Shown here piece after piece: positions 16,152 through 46,018 of a stretch of DNA of 54,493 nucleotides. Under the pieces are notes generated by a model that saw nothing but the letters and a program-made list of their open reading frames with translations, had not been told where the DNA came from and did no database searches. The stretch is taken from the NCBI GenBank assembly GCA_030645535.1, contig JAUSNM010000013.1, forward strand, positions 1-54,493. The letters are read 5' to 3'. Position 1 is the stretch's first letter. Every line of letters starts with the position of its first letter. Position numbers and translations under genes: made by a program. The DNA comes from Gallionella sp. GTDB lineage: Bacteria > Pseudomonadota > Gammaproteobacteria > Burkholderiales > Gallionellaceae.

Positions 16152-16186
16152 ATTATCCATTCTCAATTATTCATTCTCAATTATCT
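16152..16186. repeat. heptamer repeat element upstream of gpsA (ATTNTNN units)
   Basis: Five consecutive 7-bp units: ATTATCC, ATTCTCA, ATTATTC, ATTCTCA and ATTATCT. It ends 5 bp before the gpsA start codon and therefore overlaps the place where a ribosome binding site should be. The left side of the gap (16104-16138) may hold a decayed opposite arm. Confidence 0.7.
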
Positions 16187-16191
16187 CTTCA

Positions 16192-17187
16192 ATGAACATA
16201 ACCGTTATTGGTGCAGGTGCATGGGGAACGGCGCTTGCCATCAGTCTGGCGGCGCAGCATCGCGTCACCCTTTGGGCGCGTGATGCCGAGCAGGTGGCTC
16301 TAATGCGTGCCACCCGGTGCAATCAGCGTTATCTCCCGGATGCGACACTGCCGGATAATCTGCTCTTGAGTTCAGACTTTTCTGCCGCCTTGGTTGACGC
16401 CCGGCTAATCATTCTCTCGGTTCCAACCGCGGCGTTGCGTGCGACGCTGAAGCGGCTGGCAGCGTCTGGAATTGATCTGCCCGGAGTGGTGTGGTTATGT
16501 AAGGGTTTTGAGGCAGATACCTCATTGCTGCCCCATCAGGTCGCCGAGCAGGTATTGCCGGAAGGCATAGCTAGCGGTGTGTTGTCCGGCCCCAGCTTTG
16601 CATTGGAAGTCGCTCGCGGCCTGCCCACCGCTTTGGTGCTGGCGTCCAGTGATGAGGCGTTTGCGCAGCGTACGGCGCAGGCTTTGCACCATGCCCGCTT
16701 GCGAGTTTATGCCAGCAATGATGTGATCGGAGTAGAAGTCGGCGGTGCAGTCAAGAACGTGATGGCGATTGCAGCCGGTGTCTGCGATGGCATGAAGTTG
16801 GGCAATAACGCGCGCGCTGCGCTGATGACCAGAGGGCTTGCCGAAATAACGCGGCTGGGTTTGAAACTGGGAGGTCGCCCCGAAACGCTGGGCGGCTTGT
16901 CGGGAGCGGGCGATTTGATTCTGACCTGCACCGGCGATTTGTCGCGCAACCGGCGAGTCGGTTTGTTGCTGGCGCAAAAGCAGAGCGTGGACGAAATTCT
17001 GCACAAACTCGGGCATGTCGCCGAGGGCGTGTATGCCGTGCGCGAAGTGCATAGTCTTGCGCGGCGTCTTGGGGTCGATATGCCGATCAGTGAGGCTGTT
17101 TATCAGGTTTTATACGAGCATGTTCCGGCCGCCGAGATGGTTGCCACGCTGTTGAATCGCACGACGAGTCTTGAGTTCAGCCAGTAA
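16192..17187 (+). CDS. gpsA: NAD(P)-dependent glycerol-3-phosphate dehydrogenase
   Basis: This cytosolic enzyme (331 aa) makes sn-glycerol-3-phosphate from dihydroxyacetone phosphate for phospholipid synthesis. GAGAWGTALA is the nucleotide-binding motif at 7-16; LSGPSFALEVARGLPTA and EVGGAVKNVMAIAAG follow, the latter with the catalytic Lys. GLSGAGDLILTCTGDLSRNRRVG completes the signature. Its place after secB is conserved. A heptamer repeat fills the region just before the ATG and no clear Shine-Dalgarno is left, so translation may start weakly. Confidence 0.95.
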   Translation: MNITVIGAGAWGTALAISLAAQHRVTLWARDAEQVALMRATRCNQRYLPDATLPDNLLLSSDFSAALVDARLIILSVPTAALRATLKRLAASGIDLPGVVWLCKGFEADTSLLPHQVAEQVLPEGIASGVLSGPSFALEVARGLPTALVLASSDEAFAQRTAQALHHARLRVYASNDVIGVEVGGAVKNVMAIAAGVCDGMKLGNNARAALMTRGLAEITRLGLKLGGRPETLGGLSGAGDLILTCTGDLSRNRRVGLLLAQKQSVDEILHKLGHVAEGVYAVREVHSLARRLGVDMPISEAVYQVLYEHVPAAEMVATLLNRTTSLEFSQ

Positions 17188-17192
17188 AACGG

Positions 17193-17252
17193 GTAGCCAG
17201 TAGCTCGTAGCCGGTAGCAAAACCGGTTTGACTGCCCGCCGCTAGCTACAAG
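17193..17252. repeat. heptamer repeat element between gpsA and trmL (GTAGCNN units)
   Basis: Left arm: GTAGCCA, GTAGCTC, GTAGCCG, GTAGCAA (17193-17220). Right arm: CTAGCTA followed by CTACAAG up to 17252, which is the reverse-complement type. The right arm contains the stop codon of trmL and its last codons. The element belongs to the same family as the CTACGAG array at 35918. Confidence 0.75.
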
Positions 17253-17792: not shown

Positions 17793-19496
17793 ATGGCGCG
17801 TCCGGAGAAAGTTCGCTTAGGCGATTTGCTGGTACAACAACAACTCATTTCGCAGGATCAGCTCAAGTTCGCGCTTGAAGAACAAAAAAGTACCGGGCGC
17901 AAGCTGGGACGCGTGCTGGTTGACAATGGCTTTGTCACGGAAGAGAAGATATCCGAGGCGCTCGCCAAGCAGCTCAATATTCCTTATATCAATCTTAAAT
18001 ACTACAACATCAACGTCGAGCAAGTACGAAAATTGCCCGAAAATCAGGCGCGGCGTTTTCGCTCCATCGTGCTGGAGGACCGTAATGGCGTGCTGCTGGT
18101 CGGCATGGCCGATCCGACCGATCTGTTCGCCTTCGATGAAATATCGCGCATCGTCAAGTGTGACATCGATGTGGCTGTCGTCACGGAAAGTCAGTTGCTG
18201 GAAAGTATTGATCGCTGCTACCGGCGCACCGAAGAAATCACCGGTCTGGCACGCGAGCTCAGTGAAGAGCTGGGCGATAGCTATGTTGACTTCGGCGCAT
18301 TGTCCATCAATGCCGGCAGCGAGGAAGCGCCGGTAGTCAAGCTGCTGCAGACCATGTTCGACGATGCCACGCAGATTCGCGCGTCAGACATTCATATCGA
18401 GCCGCAAGAAGGCAAGCTGGTGATCCGCTTTCGCATCGATGGCGCATTGCACTTGCAAACCGAAGCGGACAACAAAATAGCGCCCTCACTGGTGTTGCGG
18501 CTGAAGTTGATGTCCGGGCTGGATATTTCCGAGAAGCGTCTGCCACAGGATGGGCGTTTCCATGTGCGGGTGCGCGAGCAGGGGGTGGATGTGCGTATCG
18601 CGACTTGCCCGACCCAATACGGTGAGGCGGTGGTGATGCGACTGTTGCGTCAGGATGGCGGCATGGTGGGCCTGGATAGATTGGGTATGCCGCCGGACAT
18701 GTTGACACGCTTTCGCCAGATACTGCGTCGCAGCAATGGCATGATCCTGGTTACAGGACCTACCGGTAGCGGCAAGACCACGACACTCTATTCCGCGCTG
18801 GCGGAGATCAATACCATTGACCAGAAGATCATCACCGTGGAAGACCCGGTGGAATATCGCTTGCCTGGTATCAATCAGGTGCAGGTGAACGAAAAAATTG
18901 CACTGACGTTTGCGACTGTGTTGCGTTCTGCGTTGCGCCAGGACCCGGATGTGATCCTGGTCGGCGAAATGCGTGATGCCGAGACTGCGCAGATCGGTTT
19001 GCGTGCGGCGATGACGGGGCACCTGGTGTTATCCACGCTGCATACTCGCGATGCGGCGAGTACCCTGTTCCGACTGGTCGATATGGGTACTGCGCGCTTC
19101 ATGGTGGCGTCCTCCGTACAGGCGGTGATCGCGCAGCGCTTATTGCGCCAGGTTTGTGAGAGTTGCAAGGAGCCGTACACGCCCTCGCCACAGGAGTTCG
19201 AATGGTTGACAACTGAGGGCGTGAGCGGCGAACAACGGGGCGGGCTGATGCATGGGCGAGGTTGCTCGCATTGCAATGCTACCGGTTATCTTGGACGGAT
19301 GGGTGTGTATGAAATGCTGGAAATGGGCCGCGAAATGGTCGAGGCGGCGGCACATGACAGCACCAATCACTTTATGCGGGCGGCGGCTGATCATATGCGC
19401 GGCAAGACGATAATTGACCATGCGCTGCTGAAAATGCGGCAGGGACTTACTACTGTGGCGGAAGTCATGCGTATCAGCAATCAGGTGGAAGACTAG
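17793..19496 (+). CDS. mshE: MSHA pilus assembly ATPase MshE
   Basis: The hexameric cytosolic ATPase (567 aa) that drives pilus extension. An N-terminal MshEN-type domain (1-150) starts VRLGDLLVQQQLISQDQL; in Vibrio this domain binds cyclic di-GMP. Walker A GPTGSGKTT is at 322-330; the Asp box TVEDPVEYRLPG and the Walker B RQDPDVILVGEMRD follow. A CESC...CSHC zinc pair is near 452-490. It is the first gene of the pilus locus and is 2 bp from mshG. An HD-GYP protein lies at the far end of the window, but a link is not shown. Confidence 0.93.
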   Translation: MARPEKVRLGDLLVQQQLISQDQLKFALEEQKSTGRKLGRVLVDNGFVTEEKISEALAKQLNIPYINLKYYNINVEQVRKLPENQARRFRSIVLEDRNGVLLVGMADPTDLFAFDEISRIVKCDIDVAVVTESQLLESIDRCYRRTEEITGLARELSEELGDSYVDFGALSINAGSEEAPVVKLLQTMFDDATQIRASDIHIEPQEGKLVIRFRIDGALHLQTEADNKIAPSLVLRLKLMSGLDISEKRLPQDGRFHVRVREQGVDVRIATCPTQYGEAVVMRLLRQDGGMVGLDRLGMPPDMLTRFRQILRRSNGMILVTGPTGSGKTTTLYSALAEINTIDQKIITVEDPVEYRLPGINQVQVNEKIALTFATVLRSALRQDPDVILVGEMRDAETAQIGLRAAMTGHLVLSTLHTRDAASTLFRLVDMGTARFMVASSVQAVIAQRLLRQVCESCKEPYTPSPQEFEWLTTEGVSGEQRGGLMHGRGCSHCNATGYLGRMGVYEMLEMGREMVEAAAHDSTNHFMRAAADHMRGKTIIDHALLKMRQGLTTVAEVMRISNQVED

Positions 19497-19498
19497 CC

Positions 19499-20737
19499 GT
19501 GGGGGTGTTCACGTACAAAGGCCGCAACGCGCACGGTGAGCTGGCGGAAGGCACGCTGGATGGTGATGACAGCGGCGCGGTCGCCGATCAATTGCTCAGT
19601 ATGGGTATTACGCCTATCGACATCAAGCCGAGCCGCGGCAACAGCGGCAACACCTCTAAGCAGGCGGATTGGCTCAAACGCGCGTTCACCGAAAAACCCA
19701 TCACGCCGATGGATTTGATGTTGTTCAGTCGCCAGATGTACACCTTGCTCAAGGCGGGCGTACCAATTCTGCGCTCCCTGGCGGGTTTGCAGGAATCCAC
19801 GCAAAACCCCACTTTTGCCGCGATGGTGCAAGATCTGCGGGAAAGCCTGGATAGCGGGCGCGAGCTCAGCGCGGCTTTGCGTCGTCATCCCAAGGTGTTC
19901 TCAACGTTCTATGTGAGCATGGTGCAAGTCGGCGAAATGACCGGTATGCTCGATCAGACCTTCATTCGTCTGTACGAATATCTGGATTTCGAGCGGGACA
20001 TGAAAGAGCGCATTACTACCGCGATGCGCTATCCGATGTTCGTGGTGATCGCCATGGCCATCGCGATCGTTATCATTAATATATTTGTGATTCCCACCTT
20101 CGCCAAGGTGTATGCGGGTTTTCATGCCGAATTGCCCACCGTCACCAAGATGCTGCTGGGATTTTCCGCGTTCATGGTGAACTACTGGCTGCTGATGCTG
20201 GCGATACTATTCGGCGTTGCCATGTCCTTCCGTTACTACACCAATACCACGGACGGGCGTTACAACTGGGACAGATACAAGTTGAGACTGCCTGTCGTAG
20301 GCCCTATCATCCTCAAGGCCACGCTGTCGCGTTTTGCGCGCAGCCTGGCACTGTCGTTCAAAAGCGGCATGCCGATCCTGCAAGGCATGAGCGTGGTCGC
20401 CATGGTGGTGGATAACGAATTCATGCGCAGCCGCATCGAACAGATGCGCGATGGTATCGAGCGAGGCGAAAGCATCTTGCGCACCGCCGTGGCGGCAGGG
20501 GTGTTCAATCCGGTGGTGTTGCAGATGATCGCCGTCGGCGAAGAAACAGGCGATCTGGACGGGCTGATGTTCGAGGTGGCGCAGATGTACGAACAGGAAG
20601 TGAAATACGAAGTGGCTACGTTAAGTTCCAAGATTGAGCCGATTCTGATCGTGTCTCTGGGTGTCCTGGTGCTGATTCTCGCGCTGGGCGTATTCCTGCC
20701 GATGTGGGATCTGGGCAAAGCGGTGATGCATCCATGA
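19499..20737 (+). CDS. mshG: MSHA inner-membrane platform protein MshG
   Basis: The GspF/PilC-type platform protein (412 aa) with which the ATPase engages. It shows two repeats of the T2SSF domain, beginning near FSRQMYTLLKAGVPILRSL and LSRFARSLALSFKSGMPILQGM. Membrane helices lie at about 172-195, 220-240 and 380-405. The start is GTG 19499. GVFTYKGRNAHGELAEG matches the usual N-terminus of this family. The last codons overlap the next gene as ATGA. Confidence 0.93.
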   Translation: MGVFTYKGRNAHGELAEGTLDGDDSGAVADQLLSMGITPIDIKPSRGNSGNTSKQADWLKRAFTEKPITPMDLMLFSRQMYTLLKAGVPILRSLAGLQESTQNPTFAAMVQDLRESLDSGRELSAALRRHPKVFSTFYVSMVQVGEMTGMLDQTFIRLYEYLDFERDMKERITTAMRYPMFVVIAMAIAIVIINIFVIPTFAKVYAGFHAELPTVTKMLLGFSAFMVNYWLLMLAILFGVAMSFRYYTNTTDGRYNWDRYKLRLPVVGPIILKATLSRFARSLALSFKSGMPILQGMSVVAMVVDNEFMRSRIEQMRDGIERGESILRTAVAAGVFNPVVLQMIAVGEETGDLDGLMFEVAQMYEQEVKYEVATLSSKIEPILIVSLGVLVLILALGVFLPMWDLGKAVMHP

Positions 20738-21378
20738 CAAGCAGGATCGAGGATCCAGACCGCAAGGGTCTTCCCCGCACGGGGGCTATGCTGTTGTTGC
20801 GTGAAGGATTAAGGATTGAGCTGGGACGTGTTGCGGTCTTTTCTAGCTACCCGCTACCCGCTACCCGCTCCTCGAAGGGTTTTACGCTGATTGAACTCGT
20901 CGTTGTTATCATCATCATCGTGGTGTTGATGGGGGTTGCTCTGGATCGTTTCAGGTTCTACCAGGAGCTGGCTGAAAAAGTAGCAATGGAAGGCGTGGTG
21001 AGCGCACTGGACAGCGCGCTGATCCTGCAATACGGGCAGATCATGACGCGCGGCAAGGCGGGCGACGTGGTGGTGCTGGCGCGAGACAACCCGATGAACT
21101 GGCTGCAAAAAAGGCAGCGTAATTATGCCGGAGAGTTTTACAATCCTTCACCGCAGGCGGTGGAGTCCGGTAACTGGCTGTTCGATCTGAAGTCGCGTGA
21201 GCTTATCTATGTTATACATAACCGCGATCATTTCAAACCCGGCAGCGACGGCAAGCCATGGATACGCTTCCATGTTGCAACCCGTTACGATCGATCCCGA
21301 TTGCCCTCGTTACAAGACGCCCCGCCGGAACTGACGGGCGTGCTGTTGGAACCTGTCGAGCCATATGTCTGGTTTTGA
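20734..21378 (+). CDS. MshB/MshF-like minor prepilin with a repeat-filled leader
   Basis: A type IV prepilin-like protein of 214 aa from the ATG that overlaps the mshG stop (ATGA). The prepilin peptidase site is [17 protein letters not shown] with Glu at +5, after a leader of 49 residues; typical leaders have 5-25. The leader is coded by a heptamer repeat element (20743-20874), so it probably grew by repeat insertion. After the N-terminal helix the globular part is not like MshA. Its place after mshG fits mshF or mshB. An alternative start is the ATG at 20788. Confidence 0.82.
   Translation: MTSRIEDPDRKGLPRTGAMLLLREGLRIELGRVAVFSSYPLPATRSSKGFTLIELVVVIIIIVVLMGVALDRFRFYQELAEKVAMEGVVSALDSALILQYGQIMTRGKAGDVVVLARDNPMNWLQKRQRNYAGEFYNPSPQAVESGNWLFDLKSRELIYVIHNRDHFKPGSDGKPWIRFHVATRYDRSRLPSLQDAPPELTGVLLEPVEPYVWF
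20743..20874. repeat. heptamer repeat element inside the prepilin leader (AGGATNN / CTACCCG)
   Basis: Left units: AGGATCG and AGGATCC (20743-20756), then AAGGATT twice (20804-20817). Right units: CTACCCG three times and CTCCTCG (20847-20874). The right arm ends directly before the codons for the prepilin cleavage site. Confidence 0.8.
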
Positions 21379-21400
21379 GAGAGTATGTGTTGTAAGTTGT

Positions 21401-21432
21401 ATTTATTGATTTATTGATTTATTGATTTATTG
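21401..21432. repeat. four perfect tandem copies of ATTTATTG
   Basis: The octamer ATTTATTG is repeated four times without error, 36 bp before the ATG of the next gene. An octamer array in a promoter region can change promoter spacing by slippage. Whether it varies here is unknown. Confidence 0.9.
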
Positions 21433-21468
21433 GTATATTTTTGCACGAGTTATTAAATGAGGTAGCGT

Positions 21469-22080
21469 ATGCATACTGACTTATCCGTGATTTTATTATG
21501 GCGCGTCTTGGCGATCTTCTTGCTCGTCGGCGCGTTGCTGGGCGTGGCACTGGGGCTGTTGTTGATTTTTAAGCCGCGCCTTCTGGAGCGCATCAATCGC
21601 GTGGCGAATCGTTGGGTTTCCACGCGACATATCAATCAGTGGCTGGATCGCAGCATCAGTATCGAGCGCTGGTTTTATCGATACCATCGACCTATGGGGA
21701 TAGCCATCATCCTGGGGTCCGGCTACAACCTCGTGTACTTTGGCTTGCTGTTCGACAAGGCGTCCGCGTTGCAACAACTGCCCCGCTATTTGCCAGCCAG
21801 TCTGATGGACGGACTGCTGGACGCTTTGGCGCTCGTTATGATGCTCGGTGCCGCTCTGGCGTTGCTGGCCGGTTTTTTTATCTGGTTGCGCCCCAGCCTG
21901 CTGCGCGGCATGGAAAAAGGTGCTAACCAATGGGTTTCTTCGCGCAGTGCCACCAAAGTGCTGGATGTGCCGCATGGTCAGGTGGATCTTTTTATAGCGG
22001 ACCATGCGCAAAGCGCAGGCTGGCTGCTGCTGCTGGGGAGCATCTACTTGTTTTTTGTCATGTTTCGTTTTCTGGTGTAA
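21469..22080 (+). CDS. four-helix membrane protein with internal duplication, unknown function
   Basis: A 203-aa inner-membrane protein I do not recognise. Four hydrophobic segments are at about 8-34, 74-94, 115-142 and 181-201. The two halves are alike: LLLIFKPRLLERINRVANRW and FFIWLRPSLLRGMEKGANQW, each followed by WVSTR or WVSSR and then a helix GIAIILGSGYNLVYF or GWLLLLGSIYLFF. So the protein arose by duplication of a two-helix unit. It lies between two pilin genes of the msh locus, a place where Vibrio has none, and behind an octamer repeat. A role in pilus function is possible from position only. Confidence 0.8.
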   Translation: MHTDLSVILLWRVLAIFLLVGALLGVALGLLLIFKPRLLERINRVANRWVSTRHINQWLDRSISIERWFYRYHRPMGIAIILGSGYNLVYFGLLFDKASALQQLPRYLPASLMDGLLDALALVMMLGAALALLAGFFIWLRPSLLRGMEKGANQWVSSRSATKVLDVPHGQVDLFIADHAQSAGWLLLLGSIYLFFVMFRFLV

Positions 22081-22083
22081 ACC

Positions 22084-22112
22084 GTTTTCCGTTCATCGGT
22101 TTTCCTGAACGG
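22084..22112. repeat. heptamer repeat fragment (GTTNNCN units) and hairpin
   Basis: Units GTTTTCC, GTTCATC and GTTTTCC (one extra G between the last two) follow the stop codon at 22080. CCGTTCA (22089-22095) can pair with TGAACGG (22106-22112). The same units occur in the bioB-bioF gap. It could also work as a weak terminator. Confidence 0.6.
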
Positions 22113-22218
22113 TAGTTGCGCAAATATCAGACTTCGCTTATAGTGTCAACTATCTTGTTATCTGCTTGCTGCGGCAAGGAGCTGACAAGTCAAAGTGAAG
22201 TTCTAAAATCGGGGCTGC

Positions 22219-22246
22219 GGCCCTTCGACGAGGCTCAGGACGGGCC
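22219..22246. repeat. dispersed CCCTTCGAC..GGCTCAGGACGGG repeat
   Basis: GGCCCTTCGACGAGGCTCAG and GACGGGCC form a palindromic repeat of a type found between genes in many bacterial genomes. It ends 20 bp before the mshA start codon and will form a hairpin in the 5' untranslated region of the major pilin mRNA. Confidence 0.65.
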
Positions 22247-22266
22247 TCATAATTTGGAGAATGAAA

Positions 22267-22641
22267 ATGAAGAAACAAGCGGGTTTTACACTGATCGAAT
22301 TGGTGATGGTTATCGTGATTCTGGGTATTTTGGCAGCGGTCGCATTGCCGAAGTTCGTGGATCTGTCAACTGATGCGAAAGTCGCGGCGGCACATGGCGT
22401 TGCAGCATCGTTAGCTTCTGGTGGCGCGATTAACTATGCGGCCAGATCACTGGGCACAGCGAGCACAGGCTATGCTTCTAGCATCGCAACTTCGGGCGTG
22501 GCTTGTAACACTGTTGCCGCCTCTTTGCTTGATGGAGGTATTCCTTCTGGTTATACGATTACTGGAACTGTTCCATCCTGCACAGTAACCAACGACTCGT
22601 TGGCTGCTGCATCGGCGGTTGCAAGAGTTCCGGCAATCTAA
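22267..22641 (+). CDS. mshA: MSHA major pilin MshA
   Basis: The type IV major pilin, 124 aa as precursor. The short leader MKKQAG is cut before [24 protein letters not shown], with Phe+1 and Glu+5. The globular part holds one Cys pair (GVACNT and VPSCTV), the disulfide loop. I chose ATG 22267 because GGAG (22256-22259) is 7 bp from it and only 1 bp from the ATG at 22261. It is short for MshA (often 150-180 aa). A strong terminator follows, consistent with far more major pilin than minor pilins. It is the only simple, repeat-free leader besides mshC among the pilin genes here. Confidence 0.92.
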
Positions 22642-22688
22642 TACATGAGCAATCAATGGGGGCAGCCCCGTTTGATGTGGTGTAATTA

Positions 22689-22720
22689 AAAACAGGGAGG
22701 CTTCGGCCTCCCTGTTTTTT
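22689..22720 (+). terminator. rho-independent terminator after mshA
   Basis: AAACAGGGAGGC (22690-22701), a TTCG loop and GCCTCCCTG (22706-22714) are followed by a T run. The position between the major pilin and the minor pilin genes suggests that most mshA transcripts end here and only a part read through to mshC onward. Confidence 0.92.
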
Positions 22721-22840
22721 CATCTGCCGTCCCCGCTTTTTGTTACACTGCGTAATCAGTCTGGGTTGCGGAGAAAGTCATGGAAAAAACATTGTTTGTG
22801 TGTGCGCACGTTGGACTAAATCGAGCCTGACCTGATTCAC

Positions 22841-23293
22841 ATGAATAGATTGATAAATAATCGCGGTTTCACACTGATCGAGTTGATCATGACGATGGTC
22901 ATCGTCGGCATCCTTGCGGTATTTGTCGCCCCTCGCCTTTTTGACGCTAATACATTCAAATCGCGCGGTTTTGCCGATCAGGTACAAGCCTCGTTGCGTT
23001 ATGCGCAGAAGGCCGCTATCGCGCAGAATCGCATCGTATGCGCAGCATTTACCAATAACAGCGTGACACTGAGCATAGGGGCTACGGTTGCTTGCGGTAC
23101 GCCTTTGCAATCGCCCACAGGGGACGCGAGCTACGTAATTAACGCGCCATCGGGGATCGTTTTTTCTGCCGTGCCGGCAGCTTTCAGTTTTGATACGCTG
23201 GGCAAACCGAGCTTTGCCGCAACACAAACTCTCACGGTGAGCGGCTATGCCACTCCCATTACGGTGGAGGCGGAAACCGGCTATGTGCATTAA
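22841..23293 (+). CDS. mshC: MSHA minor pilin MshC (GspH-like)
   Basis: A 150-aa minor prepilin. The leader MNRLINNRG is cut before FTLIELIMTMVIVGILAVFVAPRLFD (Glu+5). The body matches GspH/FimT-type minor pilins: ADQVQASLRYAQKAAIAQNR and GIVFSAVPAAFSFDTLGKPS. Two cysteines (VCAAF, VACGT) may pair. It would form part of the pilus tip complex that starts assembly. It is the first of the minor pilin cluster C-D-O-P, with mshD starting near its stop. Confidence 0.9.
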   Translation: MNRLINNRGFTLIELIMTMVIVGILAVFVAPRLFDANTFKSRGFADQVQASLRYAQKAAIAQNRIVCAAFTNNSVTLSIGATVACGTPLQSPTGDASYVINAPSGIVFSAVPAAFSFDTLGKPSFAATQTLTVSGYATPITVEAETGYVH

Positions 23294-23297
23294 AAAC

Positions 23298-23418
23298 AGG
23301 ATGCAGGATGCAGGATGCAGGATGCAGGTGGAATGGCGGGATATGCCCATTGCAATGCATGTTAAACGTAGAATAAATCCAGGTTTTGCTGAATCCCGAA
23401 TCCTGAATCCTGAATCCT
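23298..23418. repeat. inverted heptamer element in the mshD leader (AGGATGC / GAATCCT)
   Basis: Left arm: four perfect AGGATGC units (23298-23325). Core of about 65 bp. Right arm: GAATCCC and three GAATCCT units (23391-23418). GAATCCT is the reverse complement of AGGATTC, so the arms can pair. The right half (from about 23359) is close to the element in mshO. Confidence 0.92.
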
Positions 23419-23918
23419 CGCCCCTTTTTTTTCAGGCAGGTGCCAGTCTGATCGAGCTGATCATGTTCATTGTGATTGTCAGCGCAGCCTTGGCGGGAAT
23501 CCTGCTGGTGATGAATGTCACCACCAAAGGCAGTGCCGATCCGCTGATCCGCAAGCAGGCGATGGCGGCCGCGTATTCGCTGCTGGAGGAGGTCGAGTTG
23601 CAGGATTTTTCCAATCCTCCCGGGGGATTTACCCCCGCGACCCCCGGTACTCCTGCACAGGCGGAGCGCACCAGCTTCGATGATGTCGGCGATTACAATG
23701 GCTTTAAGACGACAGGGATATTCTCGTTGACGGGAGCCGCTGCAATAGTTGGGCTGGAGAATTACAATGCCAGCGTTGCCGTGGTGCCGGCAGAATTGGT
23801 TAGTGTTCCGGCGGCATACAGCATCGCGGCGGGCAGTGCGGTGCAGATCAACGTGACGGTGGCTACGTCAGATAATCAAGAGTCGGTCACTGCAACCGGA
23901 TACAGGACGGCATACTGA
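23343..23918 (+). CDS. mshD: MSHA minor pilin MshD with repeat-derived leader
   Basis: A minor prepilin with processing site FFQAG|ASLIELIMFIVIVSAALAG: Ala at +1, Glu at +5. The body includes KQAMAAAYSLLEEVELQDF and a Gly/Pro-rich GGFTPATPGTPAQAER loop, as in MshD. The start is uncertain: ATG 23343 gives a 33-residue leader, ATG 23283 (overlapping the end of mshC) gives 53. All options translate part of a heptamer repeat element, and the peptide KRRINPGFAESRILNPES in the leader is nearly that of mshO. The stop overlaps mshO as ATGA. Confidence 0.85.
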   Translation: MPIAMHVKRRINPGFAESRILNPESSPLFFQAGASLIELIMFIVIVSAALAGILLVMNVTTKGSADPLIRKQAMAAAYSLLEEVELQDFSNPPGGFTPATPGTPAQAERTSFDDVGDYNGFKTTGIFSLTGAAAIVGLENYNASVAVVPAELVSVPAAYSIAAGSAVQINVTVATSDNQESVTATGYRTAY

Positions 23919-24931
23919 TGAGTCAAGACAGGATGCAGGATGCAGGATGCAGGAAGCAGGAGAGCATGTCAGGATACAAAATGCAGGAGGGTGTGTCGCT
24001 CGTCACTACGCCTGTAAAACGCAGAGTCAATTCGGGTTTTGCTGAATCCCGAATCCCGAATCCTGAATCCATGTCTGGATTTACTTTGATCGAGATGATC
24101 ATGGTGATCGTGATCACCGGCATCATCGGCGGCATGGTGGCGGTGTTCCTCAAGGCGCCGATTCAGCAATACATGGATGTGTCGCGTCGCGCGGAGCTGA
24201 CTGATATTGCTGATACGGCGTTGTATCATCTGGCGGGCGAAATCAGCACCGCCGTGCCGAACAGCCTCCGTGTTGCGGGCTGTGGCGGAATTCCGTGTGT
24301 CGAGTTCCTGCCGACCAGGGATGGCGGACGTTATCGGGCAGCAACCGCCTCCGGGAGCGGGGATATATTGGACTTTACGATTGGCGATAGCAGTTTCGAT
24401 ATTGTCGGTTCGCCGATTGTTTTTGTTGCAGGTGACTATATCGTCGTCGGCAGCACCCAGTCGGATGGCAATCCGCCCTATGACACCACGGCGGCATCGG
24501 GTGTGTTGCGTGCCACTAGCACAACGGGTTCGCTATCCAAGGCAACTTATACCGCAACGCAATTACCTGAGTTTGCCCGATTATCTTCGCAGCGCTTCGA
24601 TGTGGTGGATGGCGCACAGCAGGCGGTGACTTACGCATGCGAAAGTGTGGGCACGAATGCCAGCGGCAATGGCACCGGCCAACTCAGGCGGTATTGGAAG
24701 TACGGTTTTTATACGACGCAAGCAGCTCCGCCTATAACCTTTCAGGCAACCGTGCCGCTGAATGCCACGCCGGTACAAAGCGCCATTCTCGCTGACAAGG
24801 TAAGCGGTTGTGTCATTGATTACGCTGTTGCCAACCAGCGGATGGGTTTGCTGGGGGTGCGGCTGACGCTGACCAGCGGCGGCGAGAGCGTCAGCCTGTA
24901 CCAGGAGATCCATGTGAGCAACGTACCATGA
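23918..24931 (+). CDS. mshO: MSHA minor pilin MshO with repeat-derived leader
   Basis: A large minor prepilin (337 aa; GspJ/PilW-like). Processing site ESMSG|FTLIEMIMVIVITGIIGGMVAVF with Glu+5. From ATG 23918, which overlaps the mshD stop, the leader has 54 residues and is made of a heptamer repeat element. The ATG at 24071, just behind that element, would give the leader MSG; no Shine-Dalgarno lies before it. The body has ADTALYHLAGEISTAVPNSLR and CGGIPCVEFLPTRDG. Overlap ATGA links it to mshP. Confidence 0.86.
   Translation: MSQDRMQDAGCRKQESMSGYKMQEGVSLVTTPVKRRVNSGFAESRIPNPESMSGFTLIEMIMVIVITGIIGGMVAVFLKAPIQQYMDVSRRAELTDIADTALYHLAGEISTAVPNSLRVAGCGGIPCVEFLPTRDGGRYRAATASGSGDILDFTIGDSSFDIVGSPIVFVAGDYIVVGSTQSDGNPPYDTTAASGVLRATSTTGSLSKATYTATQLPEFARLSSQRFDVVDGAQQAVTYACESVGTNASGNGTGQLRRYWKYGFYTTQAAPPITFQATVPLNATPVQSAILADKVSGCVIDYAVANQRMGLLGVRLTLTSGGESVSLYQEIHVSNVP
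23930..24070. repeat. inverted heptamer element in the mshO leader (AGGATGC / GAATCCN)
   Basis: Left arm: AGGATGC three times and AGGAAGC (23930-23957). Right arm: GAATCCC twice, GAATCCT, GAATCCA (24044 to 24071, the last base being the A of an ATG). The segment from about 24012 to 24056 matches 23359-23403 of the mshD element with few changes. Confidence 0.9.
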
Positions 24932-25455
24932 TTAAAACAGGATTTTGGATCGAGGATCGAGGATCCAGAATGCAGGATCGAGGATCGAGGATCGAGGTAA
25001 AACCGGCCGGCTACAGGCTGCATGCTACTAGCTACCAGTTCCAAAGAGGCTTTTCCCTGATTACGGCGATTTTCCTGCTGGTGGTGATTGCGGCGCTGGG
25101 CACTTTTGCGGTGACGCTGTCCACCACGCAACACCAAAGCCAGACGATGGATGTGATGGGCGCGCGTGCCTATCAGGCTGCATTGGCGGGAGTCGAGTGG
25201 GCGGCATTCAATGTGAGCCTGCAGGCGGCAAGCTCCGTCACTGCCTGGCCTGGCTGTATTGCGGGTGCAACCGTTGCCGTCGGCGGTAACCTCGCGCCAT
25301 TTTCGCCGGTGACGGTGAATTGCAGTGTGACTTCCGCAGTGGAGGAAGCCAGCACCATCTGGGTATACGCTGTCTCGTCGGTCGCCCATACGGCGGGTGC
25401 GGTCGGTGATGCGAATTATGTGGAGCAGGTTGCAACGGCGAAAATGGCCAGATAG
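24928..25455 (+). CDS. mshP: MSHA minor pilin MshP with repeat-derived leader
   Basis: A GspK/PilX-like minor prepilin of 175 aa. Processing site FQRG|FSLITAIFLLVVIAALGTFAVTL; position +5 is Thr, not Glu, as is usual for the GspK type at the pilus tip. The leader is 41 residues long, coded by a heptamer element (24939-25038), and the ATG overlaps the mshO stop. The body QTMDVMGARAYQAALAGVEWAAF is typical of MshP. Two cysteines (WPGCIAG, VNCSV). mshQ follows after 65 bp. Confidence 0.87.
   Translation: MIKTGFWIEDRGSRMQDRGSRIEVKPAGYRLHATSYQFQRGFSLITAIFLLVVIAALGTFAVTLSTTQHQSQTMDVMGARAYQAALAGVEWAAFNVSLQAASSVTAWPGCIAGATVAVGGNLAPFSPVTVNCSVTSAVEEASTIWVYAVSSVAHTAGAVGDANYVEQVATAKMAR
24939..25038. repeat. 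heptamer element in the mshP leader (AGGATNN / CTACNNG)
   Basis: Left arm of eight units: AGGATTT, TGGATCG, AGGATCG, AGGATCC, AGAATGC and AGGATCG three times (24939-24994). Right arm of four: CTACAGG, CTGCATG, CTACTAG, CTACCAG (25011-25038). The two arms belong to different unit types, as in the element of the prepilin gene at 20734. Confidence 0.9.
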
Positions 25456-25520
25456 CGGTTATGACAATGGGCTTTCAGGAAAAAATGGCAGTACAGGCAT
25501 AACGTGGCAAGAGAGTTGAA

Positions 25521-35917: not shown

Positions 35918-35980
35918 CTACGAGCTACGAGCTACGAGCTACGAGCTACGAGCTACGAGCTACGAGCTACACGCTACAGG
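35918..35980. repeat. CTACGAG heptamer array, seven perfect copies plus two variants
   Basis: Seven CTACGAG units in a row (35918-35966), then CTACACG and CTACAGG. It fills the whole gap between the converging mshN and comF genes. Perfect copies suggest recent expansion. It is the most regular array of the heptamer family here. Confidence 0.95.
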
Positions 35981-35984
35981 CGCT

Positions 35985-36919: not shown

Positions 36920-37915
36920 ATGAACACCCAGACTATCGCATTTCACACCCCCGTCAAAAAATCCGTCATGCCAGAGCGCTGGAGCGTAGACGAGGTAGAA
37001 GCCTTGTTCAAGCTGCCGTTCGCCGATTTGCTCTACCGTGCGCAGCAGGTACACCGCGAACATTTCGACCCGAATCAGGTGCAGCTCTCCACCTTGTTGT
37101 CCATCAAAACCGGCGGTTGTTCTGAAGACTGTGGCTACTGTCCTCAGTCGGCGTTCCATTCTACGGGTGTGGAAGACCGGAAAATGCTGGAGCTGGATGC
37201 GGTGGTCGCAGCCGCGCGTGCGGCGCAACAGGCGGGTGCGGATCGTTTTTGCATGGGCGCTGCCTGGCGTGAGCCGTCTCAAGCGGACATGCTGAGCGTG
37301 GTCGATATGGTCAAAGCAGTCCGTGGACTGGGGATGGAGACCTGCGCCACGTTAGGCATGCTGAACGATGAACAGACCGAGCAGTTGAGAGAGGCCGGTC
37401 TGGATTATTACAATCATAATCTGGATACTTCGCCCGAGTTTTACGGCGATATTATCAGCACACGCGATTATCAGGACAGGCTGGACACACTGGAGCGGGT
37501 GCGTCGTGCAGGCATGCATGTGTGCAGCGGTGGTATCGTCGGCATGGGTGAGGATTTGACGCAGCGCGCGGGCCTGGTTGCGCAACTGGCGAACATGAAT
37601 CCCTATCCTGAAAGCGTACCGATCAATAACCTGGTCAAGGTGGAAGGCACGCCGCTGGCGGAACAAGCCGATCTTGATCCGCTGGATTTCGTGCGCACCA
37701 TCGCGGTGGCGCGCATCACCATGCCGACCGCGCGCGTGCGGTTGTCAGCCGGACGTCAACAGATGTCTGATGCGATCCAGGCATTGTGTTTTCTGGCGGG
37801 TGCCAATTCGATTTTTTATGGCGAACAACTGCTGACCACCGGCAACCCCGATGTGCAGCGTGATCGCGCCCTGCTCGACAAATTGGGCATGTATGCTTTT
37901 GCCGATAAATCGTAG
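36920..37915 (+). CDS. bioB: biotin synthase
   Basis: The radical SAM enzyme (331 aa) that inserts sulfur into dethiobiotin. The CxxxCxxC cluster motif is in [16 protein letters not shown], near 62-76. [15 protein letters not shown] and GIVGMGED are further family blocks, and the [2Fe-2S] ligands include Arg in [12 protein letters not shown]. Length fits. It begins the cluster bioB-F-H-C-D; the last base of its stop codon starts a heptamer element. A promoter is likely within the repeat-bearing gap upstream; I cannot place it. Confidence 0.96.
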
Positions 37916-37977
37916 TTGCCGGTTTTCTGTTCATCGTTTGCTGTATGCCTTTAAACCGGAAACCGGAAACCGGGAAC
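37915..37977. repeat. inverted heptamer element between bioB and bioF (GTTNNCN / NGNNAAC)
   Basis: Left arm: GTTGCCG, GTTTTCT, GTTCATC, GTTTGCT, GTATGCC (37915-37949). Right arm: TTTAAAC, CGGAAAC twice, CGGGAAC (37950-37977). The right units are reverse complements of the left type, so the two arms meet with no core and can form a hairpin. It fills nearly the whole gap and ends 9 bp before the bioF ATG. Confidence 0.9.
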
Positions 37978-39242: not shown

Positions 39243-40067
39243 ATGGCCGCCTTGCACGTTGATAGCTATGGAGGCAAAGGCGCGCCGCTGTTGTTCATCC
39301 ACGGCTGGGGCATGCACGGCGGGATGTGGGGCGGCGTGCCGGCACAACTGGCACAACATTTTCAGGTTATGGCGGTGGATTTGCCAGGGCATGGTTTTAG
39401 TACGGGGAGTGGTCAGTTGGAAGTGGTCAGTGGGAAAAGCACCAAGCTGTACACTCCCGACTCCCCACTTACTACTCTCGATCTTATCGTTGACCAGTTG
39501 TCCGCCCAATTCACTGAACCGCTGACTATCTGCGGCTGGTCGCTGGGCGGGCAGGTGGCGTTGCGCTGGGCGCAGCGGTATCCAGAGCAAGTGGGCCGGC
39601 TGGTGCTGGTATCCTCAACACCTTGTTTTGTGCAACAAGCCGACTGGCCCTGTGCGATGGCAGCGGATACGCTGGCGGCTTTTTCTGCCGCCTTGCAACA
39701 GGATTATGCACAGACATTGCGCCGCTTTCTGGCGCTGCAAGTGCGCGGGGGCGAACAGGAGCGCGAACTGCTGGCAAGCTTGCGCAGATTATTGCCAAGT
39801 CGCGGTGAGCCTGATCTGGCGGCGTTGCAGTCCGGCCTGGAAATTTTGCGCGACGTCGATTTGCGCGACGTCCTGCCACAAATCAGCCAGCCGTCACTTG
39901 TGATCGCCGGCGTCCGTGATACGCTCACGCCTTTTCCCGCCTCGCAATACCTGGCGAGCAAATTGCCAGCCGCACGACTGGCAGCGATTGAGGGTGCAGC
40001 GCATGCATCGTTCCTGTCGCATCCCGATGAATTTGTAAAACACGTAGCGGGCTTCTTGCATGAATGA
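39243..40067 (+). CDS. bioH: pimeloyl-ACP methyl ester esterase BioH with a repeat-coded insertion
   Basis: An alpha/beta hydrolase of 274 aa that frees pimeloyl-ACP methyl ester. LLFIHGWGMHGGMW is the oxyanion region; ICGWSLGGQVAL carries the nucleophile Ser; GVRDTLTPFP the Asp; GAAHASFLSHP the His. Compared with Escherichia coli BioH from memory, about 19-20 residues are inserted after VDLPGHGFSTG (from GSGQLEVVSG to about TPDSP). They are coded by a heptamer element (39404-39480) that keeps the frame. The position is a loop before the nucleophile strand, so activity may be kept. Overlap with bioC is 8 bp. Confidence 0.9.
   Translation: MAALHVDSYGGKGAPLLFIHGWGMHGGMWGGVPAQLAQHFQVMAVDLPGHGFSTGSGQLEVVSGKSTKLYTPDSPLTTLDLIVDQLSAQFTEPLTICGWSLGGQVALRWAQRYPEQVGRLVLVSSTPCFVQQADWPCAMAADTLAAFSAALQQDYAQTLRRFLALQVRGGEQERELLASLRRLLPSRGEPDLAALQSGLEILRDVDLRDVLPQISQPSLVIAGVRDTLTPFPASQYLASKLPAARLAAIEGAAHASFLSHPDEFVKHVAGFLHE
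39404..39480. repeat. inverted heptamer element inside bioH (NGNNAGT / ACTNNCN)
   Basis: Left arm: GGGGAGT, GGTCAGT, TGGAAGT, GGTCAGT (39404-39431). Core of exactly 21 bp. Right arm: ACTCCCG, ACTCCCC, ACTTACT, ACTCTCG (39453-39480). Every left unit fits NGNNAGT; three of the four right units fit its reverse complement ACTNNCN, and ACTTACT has one mismatch. Confidence 0.92.
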
Positions 40068-40932: not shown

Positions 40933-41591
40933 ATTATTTTGTTACCGGTACCGATACCAATGTCGGCAAGACGCTGATCAGTTGCGCGCTGCTGCATGGT
41001 TTTGCCGGACAAGAACTGCGGGTGGTAGGGATGAAGCCGGTCGCGTGCGATGAGGGGGCTGTGAGTGAGGACGTCAGGTCGTTGCGTGCCGCCAGCAATG
41101 TGCTGGCCAGTCGCGGTCAGGTGAATCCCTATTGTTTCGAACGGGCTGTCGCACCGCATTTGGCCGCACAGTTCGCAGGGGTCAGGATTAATCTGGAGCG
41201 GATCGTTCAATCTTACCGTGAGCTGGCAACGCAGGCGGATGTGGTCATCGTGGAAGGCGCGGGCGGATTTTGTGTGCCGTTGAATGAGAGCGAAGACGGC
41301 GCCGATCTGGCACGCCAGTTGAAACTGCCAGTCATTCTGGTGGTCGGGATGCGGCTGGGTTGCCTGAATCACGCGCTGCTCACGAAGCTGGCTATTGCCG
41401 CCTCTGGCTTGAAAATGGCAGGTTGGGTCGCGAACTGCGTGGACGAATCGATGAGTATGCTGAATGAAAATATCGCTGCCTTAGAGCTGCGCTTTGATGC
41501 GCCGCTGCTGGGCGTGGTGCCGCATTATCAGACACCGCCGGATGCGACGGATGTTGTGAGATTTTTGGATATGTCACTGTTAAAGCATTAA
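40929..41591 (+). CDS. bioD: dethiobiotin synthetase
   Basis: The ATP-dependent carboxylase-like enzyme (220 aa) that closes the ureido ring. MNYFVTGTDTNVGKTLISCALLHG holds the P-loop (GTDTNVGKT at 7-15). GMKPVACD, VIVEGAGGFCVPLNESEDGADLA and the MRLGCLNHALLT segment are family marks. It is the last gene of the cluster. bioA, which should make the substrate diaminopelargonate, is not present in the window. Confidence 0.96.
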   Translation: MNYFVTGTDTNVGKTLISCALLHGFAGQELRVVGMKPVACDEGAVSEDVRSLRAASNVLASRGQVNPYCFERAVAPHLAAQFAGVRINLERIVQSYRELATQADVVIVEGAGGFCVPLNESEDGADLARQLKLPVILVVGMRLGCLNHALLTKLAIAASGLKMAGWVANCVDESMSMLNENIAALELRFDAPLLGVVPHYQTPPDATDVVRFLDMSLLKH

Positions 41592-41600
41592 AATCCGATT

Positions 41601-41621
41601 TATCCACTATCCACTATCCAT
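41601..41621. repeat. short heptamer array TATCCAC
   Basis: Three units, TATCCAC, TATCCAC and TATCCAT, in the gap between bioD and the next gene, 15 bp before the next start codon. It is a short member of the heptamer family with no visible opposite arm. Confidence 0.65.
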
Positions 41622-41636
41622 CTTTAATTGCTCATT

Positions 41637-42921: not shown

Positions 42922-42928
42922 ATGCCAA

Positions 42929-42965
42929 GTTTTCAGTTTTCAGTTTCCATTGTTTCTGGTTGCCG
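42929..42965. repeat. heptamer array GTTNNCN before the response regulator gene
   Basis: Units GTTTTCA, GTTTTCA, GTTTCCA, then after two T bases GTTTCTG and GTTGCCG. It is the same type as the left arm in the bioB-bioF gap and the right arm in mshK. It lies directly before a candidate -10 box. Confidence 0.75.
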
Positions 42966-42967
42966 GA

Positions 42968-42976
42968 TGTTATGAT
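42968..42976 (+). promoter_or_regulatory. candidate extended -10 promoter of the response regulator gene
   Basis: TGTTATGAT (TG, one base, TATGAT at 42971-42976) is an extended -10 element 41 bp before the ATG at 43018. No good -35 is present; the upstream part is a heptamer repeat. The gene has a strong RBS, GGGGGGAGAG. Confidence 0.35.
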
Positions 42977-43017
42977 TAGCCAAGGTCTGAAAAAGGCTAC
43001 TTGTCCGGGGGGAGAGT

Positions 43018-43671
43018 ATGAAAATTTTGTTGGCTGATGACCACGCGTTGTTTCGCGACGGGATGCGCTATGTATTGCAGCAGTTGTCCGAGTCGCTGGA
43101 AATACTTGAGGCGGACAATTTTCTGGATTGTTTAAAAATTGCCGGTCAGCATCCGGAACTGGATATGTTGCTGCTGGATTTGCATATGCCAGGTAGCGAC
43201 GGGCCAAAGTCGGTCAGCTATTTTCATCAGCGTTATCCGCATATTCCGGTGGTGGTAGTGTCGGGTGAAGAATGTTGCTCAAATATGGAAAAGGTAATGG
43301 ATTACGGAGCTTCAGGTTTTGTTTGCAAGAGTTCGAACGCGAATACGATGCTGTCCGCGTTGAATTTGGTTATGTCCGGTGGTGTGTATTTGCCACCGGA
43401 GATTTTGCGCCACTATGAGCTTGAAGCGGCGCATGTGGACAGACGCAGCCTGCATACCAATGCCTATGGGCTGACGCAGCGCCAGATGCAAGTTTTGCAG
43501 CATCTTTGTGCCGGGATGAGCAACAAGGAAATCGCATCACGCATTCATCTCGCCGAAGGAACCGTTAAAATCCATGTGGCTGCGGTGTATCACACGTTAA
43601 AAGTCGGTAGCCGCATCGAGGCTGTGCGCGCTGCCGAGCATTTGGGACTGCTCGGGGTGCCGAATGGCTGA
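43018..43671 (+). CDS. NarL/LuxR-family response regulator
   Basis: A 217-aa two-component regulator. The receiver domain (1-120) has Asp7, Asp8, the phospho-acceptor Asp54 (LLLDLHMPG), Ser82 and Lys104. The C-terminal LuxR-type helix-turn-helix (about 150-212) has [24 protein letters not shown] and [15 protein letters not shown]. No sensor kinase gene lies next to it, so its signal is unknown. It overlaps ftsK by 8 bp, an unusual link between a regulator and a division gene. Confidence 0.9.
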
Positions 43672-45931
43672 AGATAGCCGCGACTTGCCGGGAAATAAAC
43701 TGCTCAGTCTGTTGCGCGAATCGCGCTGGCTGTTGCTGGCAGCATTCGCGTTATATTTTACGGTGGCGCTGTATGGCTACCATCCTGCCGATTCAGCCTG
43801 GTCCCATAGTGCCGCAGCCACGCTGGTTCACAATCCCACGGGTGTGCTGGGGGCTTATTTATCCGACCTGTTGTTCTATCTGTTTGGCATGTCGGCCTGG
43901 TTGCTGGTGTTGTTCATGCTGCAACAAGTATGGGCCGGTTATCGCAGGTTGCGGGCAGACAGTATCTTTTGCAAAAGAACGCTGTGGGTTTCCGTCATCG
44001 GATTTAGCTTGCTGTTGCTCTCCAGCAGTTCGCTTGAAGCGATCCGTTTGCATACGCTTAAAATACCCCTGCCCCTTGCGCCCGGTGGCATGTTCGGCAT
44101 ACTGATCGGTGATGCGCTGACGCGCATGCTCGGTTTTACAGGTGCCACCTTGTTGCTGCTGGCGCTGATGGCGAGCAGTTTCAGTGTGTTCAGCGGCCTG
44201 TCGTGGTTGCGTTTCATGGACTGGTTGGGTGAGCAGCTGGAAGCAGCTTACTGCTGGATACGGCAGTTCTGGCAGACACGTCAGGACAAACGTATCGGTG
44301 TACAGGCGACCAGTTTGCGCAGCGCAGTTGTCGAGGTAGAGAAGAAACGCGTCGAAGTGCATCAGCCGATACACATCGAAAGGCCAGTCGTTGAAGTGGT
44401 CAAGTCGGCGCGTGCCAGTGAAGAAAAGCAGATTACGCTGTTTGCCGATATGCCCGACTCGCCCCTGCCACCGCTGCATTTGCTTGATCCTGCGACACAG
44501 CAGGTTGAGACGGTATCAGCCGATACGCTGGAGTTCACCTCCCGTCTGATCGAACGCAAGCTGCAAGATTTTGGTGTGACCGTTAAAGTTGTGGCCGCCT
44601 ATCCGGGGCCTGTGATCACGCGTTACGAGATCGAGCCTGCAGTCGGCGTGAAGGGTAGCCAGATTACCAATCTGGTGCGCGATCTGGCGCGTGCGTTGTC
44701 GGTGGTGAGCATCCGTCTGGTCGAGACCATTCCCGGCAAAACCTTTATGGCGCTGGAATTGCCCAATGCCAAACGGCAGATGGTGCAGCTCTCCGAAATC
44801 CTGAGTTCTCAGGTGTATGCAGATATGCATTCCATGTTGACCATCGCGATGGGCAAGGACATCGCCGGCAATCCGGTGGTCGCGGATCTGGCCAAGATGC
44901 CGCACGTGCTGGTGGCGGGTACCACAGGTTCAGGAAAGTCGGTGGGGATCAACGCCATGATCCTCAGCATTCTCTACAAGGCCACGCCGCAACAGGTGCG
45001 CATGTTGCTGATTGATCCGAAGATGCTGGAATTGTCTGTGTATGAAGGCATTCCGCATCTGCTCTGCCCGGTAGTGACTGATATGCGTCAGGCAGCCTCT
45101 GGTCTTAACTGGTGCGTGCAGGAAATGGATAAGCGTTACCGGTTGATGTCGCACTTTGGCGTGCGCAATATCGCAGGCTTCAACCAGAAGCATCGGGAGG
45201 CCATCAAGGCGGACAAGCCGCTGACCAATCCGTTCTCGCTGACCCCTGATGATCCGGAGGCGCTTGAAGAATTGCCGCTGATCGTGGTGTTCATCGACGA
45301 ACTGGCCGACTTGATGATGGTGGTCGGCAAGAAAATCGAAGAGCTGATTGCGCGTCTGGCGCAGAAGGCGCGTGCCTCCGGCATTCATCTGGTGTTGGCT
45401 ACACAACGTCCGTCAGTGGATGTGATCACCGGACTGATCAAGGCCAACGTGCCGACGCGCATTGCGTTTCAGGTGTCCAGCAAGATAGATTCCCGCACGA
45501 TACTCGATCAGATGGGTGCAGAAGCTTTGCTGGGTCAGGGCGATATGCTGTACTTGCCGCCCGGAACCGGTTATCCGCAACGCGTGCATGGCGCATTCGT
45601 CTCCGATCAGGAAGTGCATCGCATTGCCGAGTATTTGAAGGCGCAAGGTGCGCCGGAGTATATAGACGGAATGCTCAATTCGCTTGAAGACTCGGGCGAT
45701 GACGGCGGCTTGTCGCCAACGCTGGATGCAGAGGCGGATCCGTTGTACGACCAGGCGGTCGAAATCGTGGTCAAATCCCGCCGTGCCTCAATTTCGCTGG
45801 TGCAGCGCAATTTGCGCATCGGCTATAACCGGGCCGCGCGTCTGGTTGAGCAAATGGAAGCCGCAGGTATCGTGACTGCAATGCAGAGCAACGGCAATCG
45901 CGAAGTGATCGCACCCGCAAGGCAGGAATGA
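43664..45931 (+). CDS. ftsK: DNA translocase FtsK
   Basis: The septal DNA pump (755 aa) that aligns chromosome ends for XerCD. Four N-terminal membrane helices (about 22-185), a short linker (about 200-270), the alpha-beta motor with Walker A GTTGSGKS at 419-426 and [17 protein letters not shown] as Walker B, then [20 protein letters not shown] and a gamma winged-helix ([33 protein letters not shown]). The linker is short in comparison with that of Escherichia coli, as in most betaproteobacteria. lolA and rarA follow, a conserved order. Confidence 0.95.
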
Positions 45932-45934
45932 ATC

Positions 45935-46018
45935 AGGATTCAGGATGCAGGATTCAGTAAAAACCGTTGCGCCGCTTTTGATTTTCTCCTGAATCCCGAT
46001 TCCTGTATCCCGCATCCT
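45935..46018. repeat. inverted heptamer element between ftsK and lolA (AGGATNC / CNGNATC)
   Basis: Left arm: AGGATTC, AGGATGC, AGGATTC (45935-45955). Right arm: CTGAATC, CCGATTC, CTGTATC, CCGCATC then CT (45989-46018). The right arm is the reverse-complement type of the left, with a 33-bp core. Same class as in mshD and mshO. It ends 12 bp before the lolA ATG. Confidence 0.88.

Follow-up and report, generated by a model that had tools for sequence, protein, structure and literature searches.

Ever since a survey of 2007, it has been a puzzle that long simple repeats of bacteria so often consist of seven-base units (PMC4679880, PMC4692102). The closest described arrays are those of GGGAATC units in Xanthomonas, for which Rehm et al. 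(2015) report inverted pairs, 70 in one genome and 75 in another, the pairs being convergent; the same report gives GGGGA(C/T)T as the unit of Nostoc and mentions three tandem heptanucleotides in Calothrix (PMC4692102). MacGregor (2015) described TAACTGA direct repeats of Beggiatoaceae (PMC4679880), and Di Nocera et al. (2013) repetitive extragenic palindromes (REPs) of the GTAG/CGTC kind, some of which lie inside genes, tRNA synthetases among them (PMC3733652). The present study deals with heptamer arrays in a stretch of 54,493 bp of Gallionella sp. (the window: positions 1 to 54,493 of contig JAUSNM010000013.1, assembly GCA_030645535.1), which is part of a draft genome (G000) of 2.68 Mb in 116 contigs that is 86.6% complete. 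We assume, with a probability of about 0.6, that these are dispersed, hairpin-prone arrays which turn over as variant units are amplified in register and alleles are replaced, and which are tolerated in intergenic gaps and permissive protein loops. The heptameric short tandemly repeated repetitive sequences of heterocystous cyanobacteria also comprise several heptamer types per genome, and it is in the number of types alone that we liken them to the Gallionella arrays.

As in Xanthomonas and Nostoc, exact heptamers are present in many copies, mostly in non-coding DNA, and as in Xanthomonas there are inverted pairs with the G-rich arm first, with variation of length and sequence at gaps common to close species (PMC4692102). 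The relevant sections of that report, however, treat one G-quadruplex-capable unit family per genome (PMC4692102), whereas the Gallionella arrays are not made of a single GGG-containing unit: arm types without GGG are AGGATNN, GTAGCNN, AGTCGTT and others, several types occur per genome, and mixed arms, in-register changes of type, an AAAACC motif and in-frame tracts in enzyme loops set the system further apart. The TAACTGA repeats of Beggiatoaceae are likewise dispersed intergenic heptamers near start codons but consist of a single, direct heptamer with one inverted case, related heptamers being, in the sections of the report that concern them, rarely or never repeated (PMC4679880). REPs and Rickettsia palindromic elements are comparable as palindromic repeats in gaps and in open reading frames (ORFs), including those of tRNA synthetases, but REPs are a fixed palindrome with a GTAG or CGTC tag (PMC3733652), whereas the Gallionella sites have arms of tandem heptamers and mostly site-specific cores. 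From what is published in these reports on Xanthomonas, Beggiatoaceae and REPs, period, inversion and tolerance within genes are each already known. The view of an earlier note on this DNA, in which inverted heptamer arms counted as new, is corrected by the inverted GGGAATC pairs published in 2015 (PMC4692102). In the open-licence literature that was searched, no paper combined Gallionella with 'tandem repeat' and 'intergenic', and inverted heptamer arrays of several types are not reported there for Gallionellaceae. Nor did these searches yield a description of any genome in which numerous heptamer types, arms of mixed type, an in-register change of type and a recurrent turn motif occur together with a conserved enzyme loop that is filled by arrays or other palindromes in most species of the genus.

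The presence of heptamer arrays is confirmed. Arrays were scored by self-similarity at a fixed lag (match +1, mismatch -1, maximal segments). Fifteen period-7 sites had been listed between 16 and 46 kb of the window, of which 14 scored 9 to 52 at lag 7; the maximum of the background, 2,000 random 145-bp windows with starts in 0.2-15.8 kb and 46.2-54.2 kb, was 8. The remaining site, 22084, was no better than background (score 5) and was dropped; at sites 16152 and 39404 the signal is weak at lag 7 (score 9 each) and clear at lag 14. With a threshold of 11, the window contained 16 segments at lag 7 compared to 1, 0, 1, 1, 0, 0, 1 and 1 at lags 4, 5, 6, 8, 10, 11, 12 and 13; there were also four segments at lag 9, five at lag 14 (twice seven), two at lag 15 and one at lag 16. 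Twenty shuffles of the window in 60-bp blocks gave zero lag-7 segments (mean 0.0). A sample of the same genome (381,593 bases in 20 stretches, including one of 1,593 N) yielded 44 arrays at lag 7 versus 2, 0, 3, 2 and 1 at lags 5, 8, 10, 11 and 13, so that period 7 exceeds periods 6 and 8, the check that had been suggested; the 14, 16 and 12 segments at lags 6, 9 and 12 are taken for the three-base rhythm of coding sequence. An artefact of chance or low complexity, to which site 22084 alone might be ascribed, is refuted by the lag and shuffle controls and has a practically negligible probability. At a threshold of 10 there were zero segments in 1-16 kb and in 46.05-54.5 kb, in agreement with the earlier description of both flanks as empty; at a threshold of 8 one weak segment appeared in each. 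The restriction to 16-46 kb is local clustering, and arrays are present on many contigs of the genome.

The pattern (AGGATNN)x3 has 82 matches in the genome, overlapping matches within one array being counted separately, and its reversed control has none; the degenerate pattern (AGKRKNN)x4 has 121 matches versus 19 for its control. The latter pattern, present in 61 of the 76 genomes of the genus and in 61 of a sample of 369 genomes from the class (both counts include the own genome), has a patchy distribution; in some genomes the control matches as often or more, as other heptamer words fit the reversed pattern. Judged by MshE, the closest named relatives are mostly metagenome-assembled genomes of Gallionella with 80-88% identity, and of 80 named loci that surround MshE, 8 contain lag-7 arrays at a stricter setting. 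Of 60 own-genome arrays, 33 have a heptamer that recurs unchanged at another site, as compared to 5.05 after letter shuffling. This nearest-neighbour test was used in place of a sorting of units into eight named types at 5/7 identity, which is uninformative since 79% of random heptamers pass.

Adjacent arms are convergent, with the G-rich arm first, in 38 of 42 pairs (own genome, 12 of 14; 25 loci of relatives, 18 of 20; 58 bioH and cysS loci, 8 of 8). Arms were oriented according to G over C; with a purine rule used earlier, 10 of 13 pairs were convergent. The four exceptions concern GTAGC- and GTTTNC-type units, for which the G-over-C rule is ambiguous. The notions of a limited set of unit types and of inverted arms are thus upheld. 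The two arms of a pair also agree in type: the mean arm match was 5.28 of 7 in the 25 loci of relatives versus a maximum of 5.17 in 1,000 permutations (18 pairs), and 5.5 in the own genome versus a permuted mean of 4.62, a 95% point of 5.25 and a maximum of 5.75 (12 pairs). Mixed arms, which had been noticed at three sites, are seen in the sequence at 24939 and 31684; at 20743 the left AGGATNN arm has just two units. In a pooled set of 195 arrays from 1.37 Mb, the motif AAAACC stands just inside the G-rich arm of 16 arrays (1.56 expected, 3 on the outer side), in 15 of them within 4 nt. A test for palindromic turns of the form GG[AT]3-6CC gave 33 inner versus 13 outer occurrences, with 10.7 expected, an excess that is suggestive only.

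Orthologous gaps of sister species contain another heptamer type, another palindrome or nothing. The gap between the genes that end at 45931 and start at 46031 holds AGGATTC units and their inverse in the window, AAGGGAT units and their inverse in locus L141, and, in L142, AGTGGTA units to the left of CCTGAAT units. The gap 41591-41628 has about three TATCCAC units in the window and in L141, seven CACTATC units in L158 and about six CACTTAC units in L142, so that L158 and L142 differ in unit despite an alignment identity of about 89%. The gap 16100-16192 is empty in L140 and L032, where the two genes nearly abut; unoccupied gaps, for which a comparison of sister strains had been suggested, are thus available in relatives, although in sister species rather than in sister strains.

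An in-register difference of type is seen in the sister species G092 and G117, which are 93.5-99.0% identical in five blocks 3.3 to 20 kb long and 74-90% identical in other blocks. Ten alignment rows with a change of length were listed; three of them, at two sites, clearly involve arrays, and one more has a single marginal score (9). At the first site both species have AGTCGTT units, and G117 alone adds seven perfect AGTGGTG units in register. At the second site six AGTGGTA units in G092 are opposed to AGGATTG units with an inverted arm in G117. This site adjoins a diverged patch that extends into the downstream gene, as is expected of allele replacement by homologous recombination. The bioH gene of the pair shows the same allele-replacement pattern: G117 has heptamers and G092 a GTAG palindrome, the upstream sequence is near-identical, and about 70 diverged bases follow downstream. 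AGTGGTG arrays were found on nine other contigs of G117 and could be donors; the reversed form of this search pattern is not a control, since it matches those arrays too, in a different phase. A change of unit type was flagged in 18 of the 49 pooled arrays of at least six units, with clean examples, among others, in L113 at 13544 (AGTGGGA to AGTCGTT) and in L118 at 608.

Hairpins with a function in RNA or DNA, such as mRNA stabilisers, terminators or protein-binding arrays, could be selected for structure and not for sequence. Many arrays of the window lie, as judged by eye, between co-directional ORFs, and the predicted RNA folds reach a z of -3 or lower versus shuffles in 8 of 14 own-genome pairs. 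The other six miss this value; they include the sites with mixed arms, 24940-25038 (z -1.2) and 31683-31771 (z -1.8), and the matched pair 23929-24070 (z -1.3). Moreover, like tracts sit within coding loops, the unit sequence is unconserved at orthologous gaps, and some of these gaps are empty in relatives. We therefore consider selection for hairpins a rather unlikely basis of the arrays.

A dedicated, undescribed enzyme that writes heptamers, for instance by templated addition outward from the core, would account for the exact period of seven, the few unit types, the fixed polarity and the occurrence of the AAAACC motif in several species. The difference of type in the sister pair, however, resembles amplification at the level of units. 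Reverse transcriptase as the writer was rejected: the RVT_1 family is matched in 23 of 61 genus genomes and not in the own draft of 86.6% completeness, and its carriage is not associated with the number of pattern matches (61 genomes, p 0.29). A dedicated enzyme thus appears improbable. A broader proposal, namely that Gallionella-type and scattered other proteobacteria have an undescribed activity which builds inverted heptamer arrays with a constant polarity about an AAAACC/GGTTTT turn, so that loops of conserved enzymes and leader-like N-termini are continually rewritten in frame, is speculative and in our opinion doubtful.

Arrays are not confined to gaps. The site at 39404 lies in a loop of bioH that follows DLPGHGFS and carries a 75-base in-frame insert derived from heptamers (AGTGGNN ... 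CCACTNN; 39402-39476, plus strand). The loop was compared in 56 genomes of the genus, represented by the 30 best matches, L142, L158 and 24 lower-scoring matches (L141 repeats L190), and its length is a multiple of three in all 56. Seven loops are bare (18-24 bases), nine have 33-42 bases and 40 have 51-141 bases; the lag-7 flag (a score of at least 9) applies to 25 of the 56, with several unit types, and many of the unflagged ones are palindromes, often with GTAG feet. The bare loops fit turnover by amplification and allele replacement equally. In a sister genus, from which one paralogue had been dropped beforehand, 28 of 29 bioH loci were measurable: 18 have exactly 21 bases and ten have in-frame inserts, three of which are flagged as heptamer arrays. 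In the bioH loop of G150 (L280) a CCCTCTCCC..GGGAGAGGG palindrome forms the core between AGAAGGG arms, in frame. A loop of cysS is also in frame in 30 of 30 cases (the best 30 of 56 genomes with a match); five of these 30 have a lag-7 score of at least 9, and the remainder are other repeats or short. The gene (cysteinyl-tRNA synthetase; L118:6839-8236, minus strand, and L159-L188) shows many different short in-frame loop inserts in 30 genomes, and in L185 a palindromic repeat, CTAGCCATTCGGCTAGG.., is nested inside another one, CCTGAGC..TTGTCGAAGG. A second dispersed palindromic repeat, ACTAGCCATTCGACTAGGC..CCAAGTCGCTGGTTAT, is often found beside or inside heptamer arrays (L143, L144, L148, L153, L185, L215).

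The palindromes lead to the alternative that the arrays are mobile elements, similar to REPs or miniature inverted-repeat transposable elements, which are moved by a REP-associated tyrosine transposase and whose arms are heptameric by happenstance. GTAG-footed palindromes fill the same bioH loop in other species, other palindromes fill the cysS loop, and in 61 genomes there is a weak correlation between the copy number of Y1_Tnp and the number of heptamer-pattern matches, without correction for kinship or genome size (rho 0.35, p 0.0055). A single Y1_Tnp gene is present in the own genome; it is located on contig C32 and hence outside the window's contig. There are, however, strong exceptions: G056 with five copies and G035 with three have zero pattern matches, whereas G048 has one copy and 257 matches. 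Many arm types lack GTAG, no GTAG tag stands at the foot of a conserved palindrome, no fixed terminal repeat was seen at the arrays, and no target duplication was established, the empty sites being too distant to resolve one. A shared core element was also rejected: blastn-short found zero core matches of at least 14 nt among the 14 own-genome arm pairs and no common core of that length among 14 AGGAT-type pattern matches, one site of which is listed twice. Two own-genome sites, 45960 and L112:9365, do agree at 17 of 20 core bases, a likeness below what the blastn-short settings could report; cores are otherwise not common between sites. The core AAAACC..GCTTTT stands near arrays in three of its six occurrences, compared to 0-1 for each of four control patterns; the pair just mentioned makes up two of the three. 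The transposase was rejected as the driver on account of the weak correlation and its exceptions, and with no general common core and no fixed terminal repeat we regard mobile elements of this kind as unlikely. The idea of discrete elements with fixed borders is not supported, given the mostly unshared cores and the array that changes its type in register in the sister pair, and the earlier interpretation as a whole is only partly supported.

The SbcD subunit of the hairpin nuclease SbcCD is above the family cut-off in 7 of 61 genus genomes, with any match in 12, and this rarity may make the genus tolerant of palindromes. Loss of SbcCD as the cause of the arrays was rejected: the own genome and G077 (237 matches) have SbcD, and there is no association (p 0.23).

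For the turnover that we favour we propose the following course. A gap or a dispensable loop would gain a few G-rich heptamers, and their complement would be added in inverted orientation behind a short turn that is often marked by AAAACC/GGTTTT, presumably by fold-back (snap-back) synthesis or template switching at the AT-rich turn. Variant units would then be amplified in register, most likely by slippage, so that the unit type changes in place, and whole alleles would be swapped by homologous recombination with relatives. Ectopic strand exchange, or template switching, limited to the arms would carry unit types from site to site; this is probably the route of spread, because the arms are in common between sites while the cores mostly are not. 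Amplification, allele replacement and arm-confined exchange together would produce shared words and mostly unshared cores. The tracts, presumably devoid of a sequence-specific function, would be tolerated in short intergenic gaps and, where their length is divisible by three, also in N-termini resembling leaders and in variable loops of such conserved enzymes as those of bioH and cysS.

Several points weigh against this proposal. Slippage alone leaves the agreement of arm types and the G-rich-first order unexplained, and a recurrent AAAACC motif is unexpected under purely local slippage. Ectopic exchange was not observed; it is the existence of donor arrays that was found. The two cores that agree at 17 of 20 bases would fit the copying of an element. 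The arm match in bioH and cysS is just borderline (5.375 versus a 95% point of 5.38, 8 pairs), and the 195 pooled arrays are not independent, as the bioH, cysS and sister-species sets hold related alleles. At least two of the arrays flagged for a change of type are inverted arms run together (L116 at 5730 and L141 at 16205).

The clade offers many natural experiments: in the bioH loop alone, 25 heptamer-flagged alleles stand beside bare and palindrome-filled ones in 56 genomes. This diversity, together with the in-register difference of the sister pair, makes the steps of amplification and inversion directly testable. The clade also illustrates how repeat turnover brings new amino-acid sequence into conserved proteins with the frame intact.

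In the window, arrays lie in frame at the predicted N-terminus of four prepilin-like ORFs, of which one is above the Pfam N_methyl cut-off, one is just below and two were recognised by eye. In ORF 20704-21378 a GCTACCC right arm (20846-20874) is located in frame 5' of the Pfam N-methylation motif; the weak left arm, evident from the sequence, consists of the two AGGATNN units at 20743-20756. An AGGATGC left arm (23297-23328, score 25) is followed by a GAATCCT right arm (23391-23418) in frame in a prepilin-like leader (..FAESRILNPESSP..) that was assigned by eye, without a Pfam match. Similarly, an AGGATGC left arm at 23929-23961 (score 24) is paired with a GAATCCC right arm at 24044-24070 in a second leader (..FAESRIPNPESMS..), for which N_methyl reached 21.1 bits at a cut-off of 21.2. 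ORF 31660-32133, whose N-terminus is signal-peptide-like by eye, contains a GGGGAGT left arm (31683-31711) and a right arm of mixed type (31731-31771), both from the lag-7 scan; the GTTTNCN units of the latter are in frame and code for a hydrophobic stretch of the predicted N-terminus. By eye, arrays also adjoin prepilin-like mature starts in L031, L032, L037, L038 and L042. In L118:3394-5845 there are three tandem, related prepilin-like genes, and both gaps between them hold a similar hairpin followed by ATCCTGC-type units.

The other arrays of the window start with a weak one of ATTCTCA/ATTATCC type (16152-16185; Tandem Repeats Finder period 14, score 63), just 5' of the gpsA-like ORF 16192-17187 that was assigned by Pfam. 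The lag-7 scan revealed a GTAGCNN left arm at 17193-17218 with AAAACC immediately after it, at 17219, and, at the mixed site, a GCTACNN right arm (25009-25038) behind an AGGATCG left arm that continues into TAAAACC (24940-24997, score 33). A CTNTCAA array (33913-33952, score 15) is followed by the array with the top score of the window, GCTACGA at 35917-35981 (score 52), and by GTTTTCN left and AAACCGG right arms at 37915-37977 (right arm score 16, left arm by eye). Further downstream are a TATCCAC array (41601-41620, score 13), an AGTTTTC array (42928-42969, score 15) and an AGGATTC left arm (45930-45957, score 15), which is followed by TAAAAACCG and has its GAATCCC right arm at 45987-46017 (score 10).

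The region 17793-33866 is a cluster of the MSHA pilus type that comprises T2SSE, T2SSF, the prepilin-like ORFs, a PilM-like ORF and a DUF6701 protein of 1,273 amino acids. An Rfam scan of the window gave only a 5S rRNA at the left end (12-125) and a tRNA near the right end (53064-53150). A perfect 8-bp tandem repeat, four copies of ATTTATTG at 21401-21432, is located between two genes and is unrelated to the heptamers.

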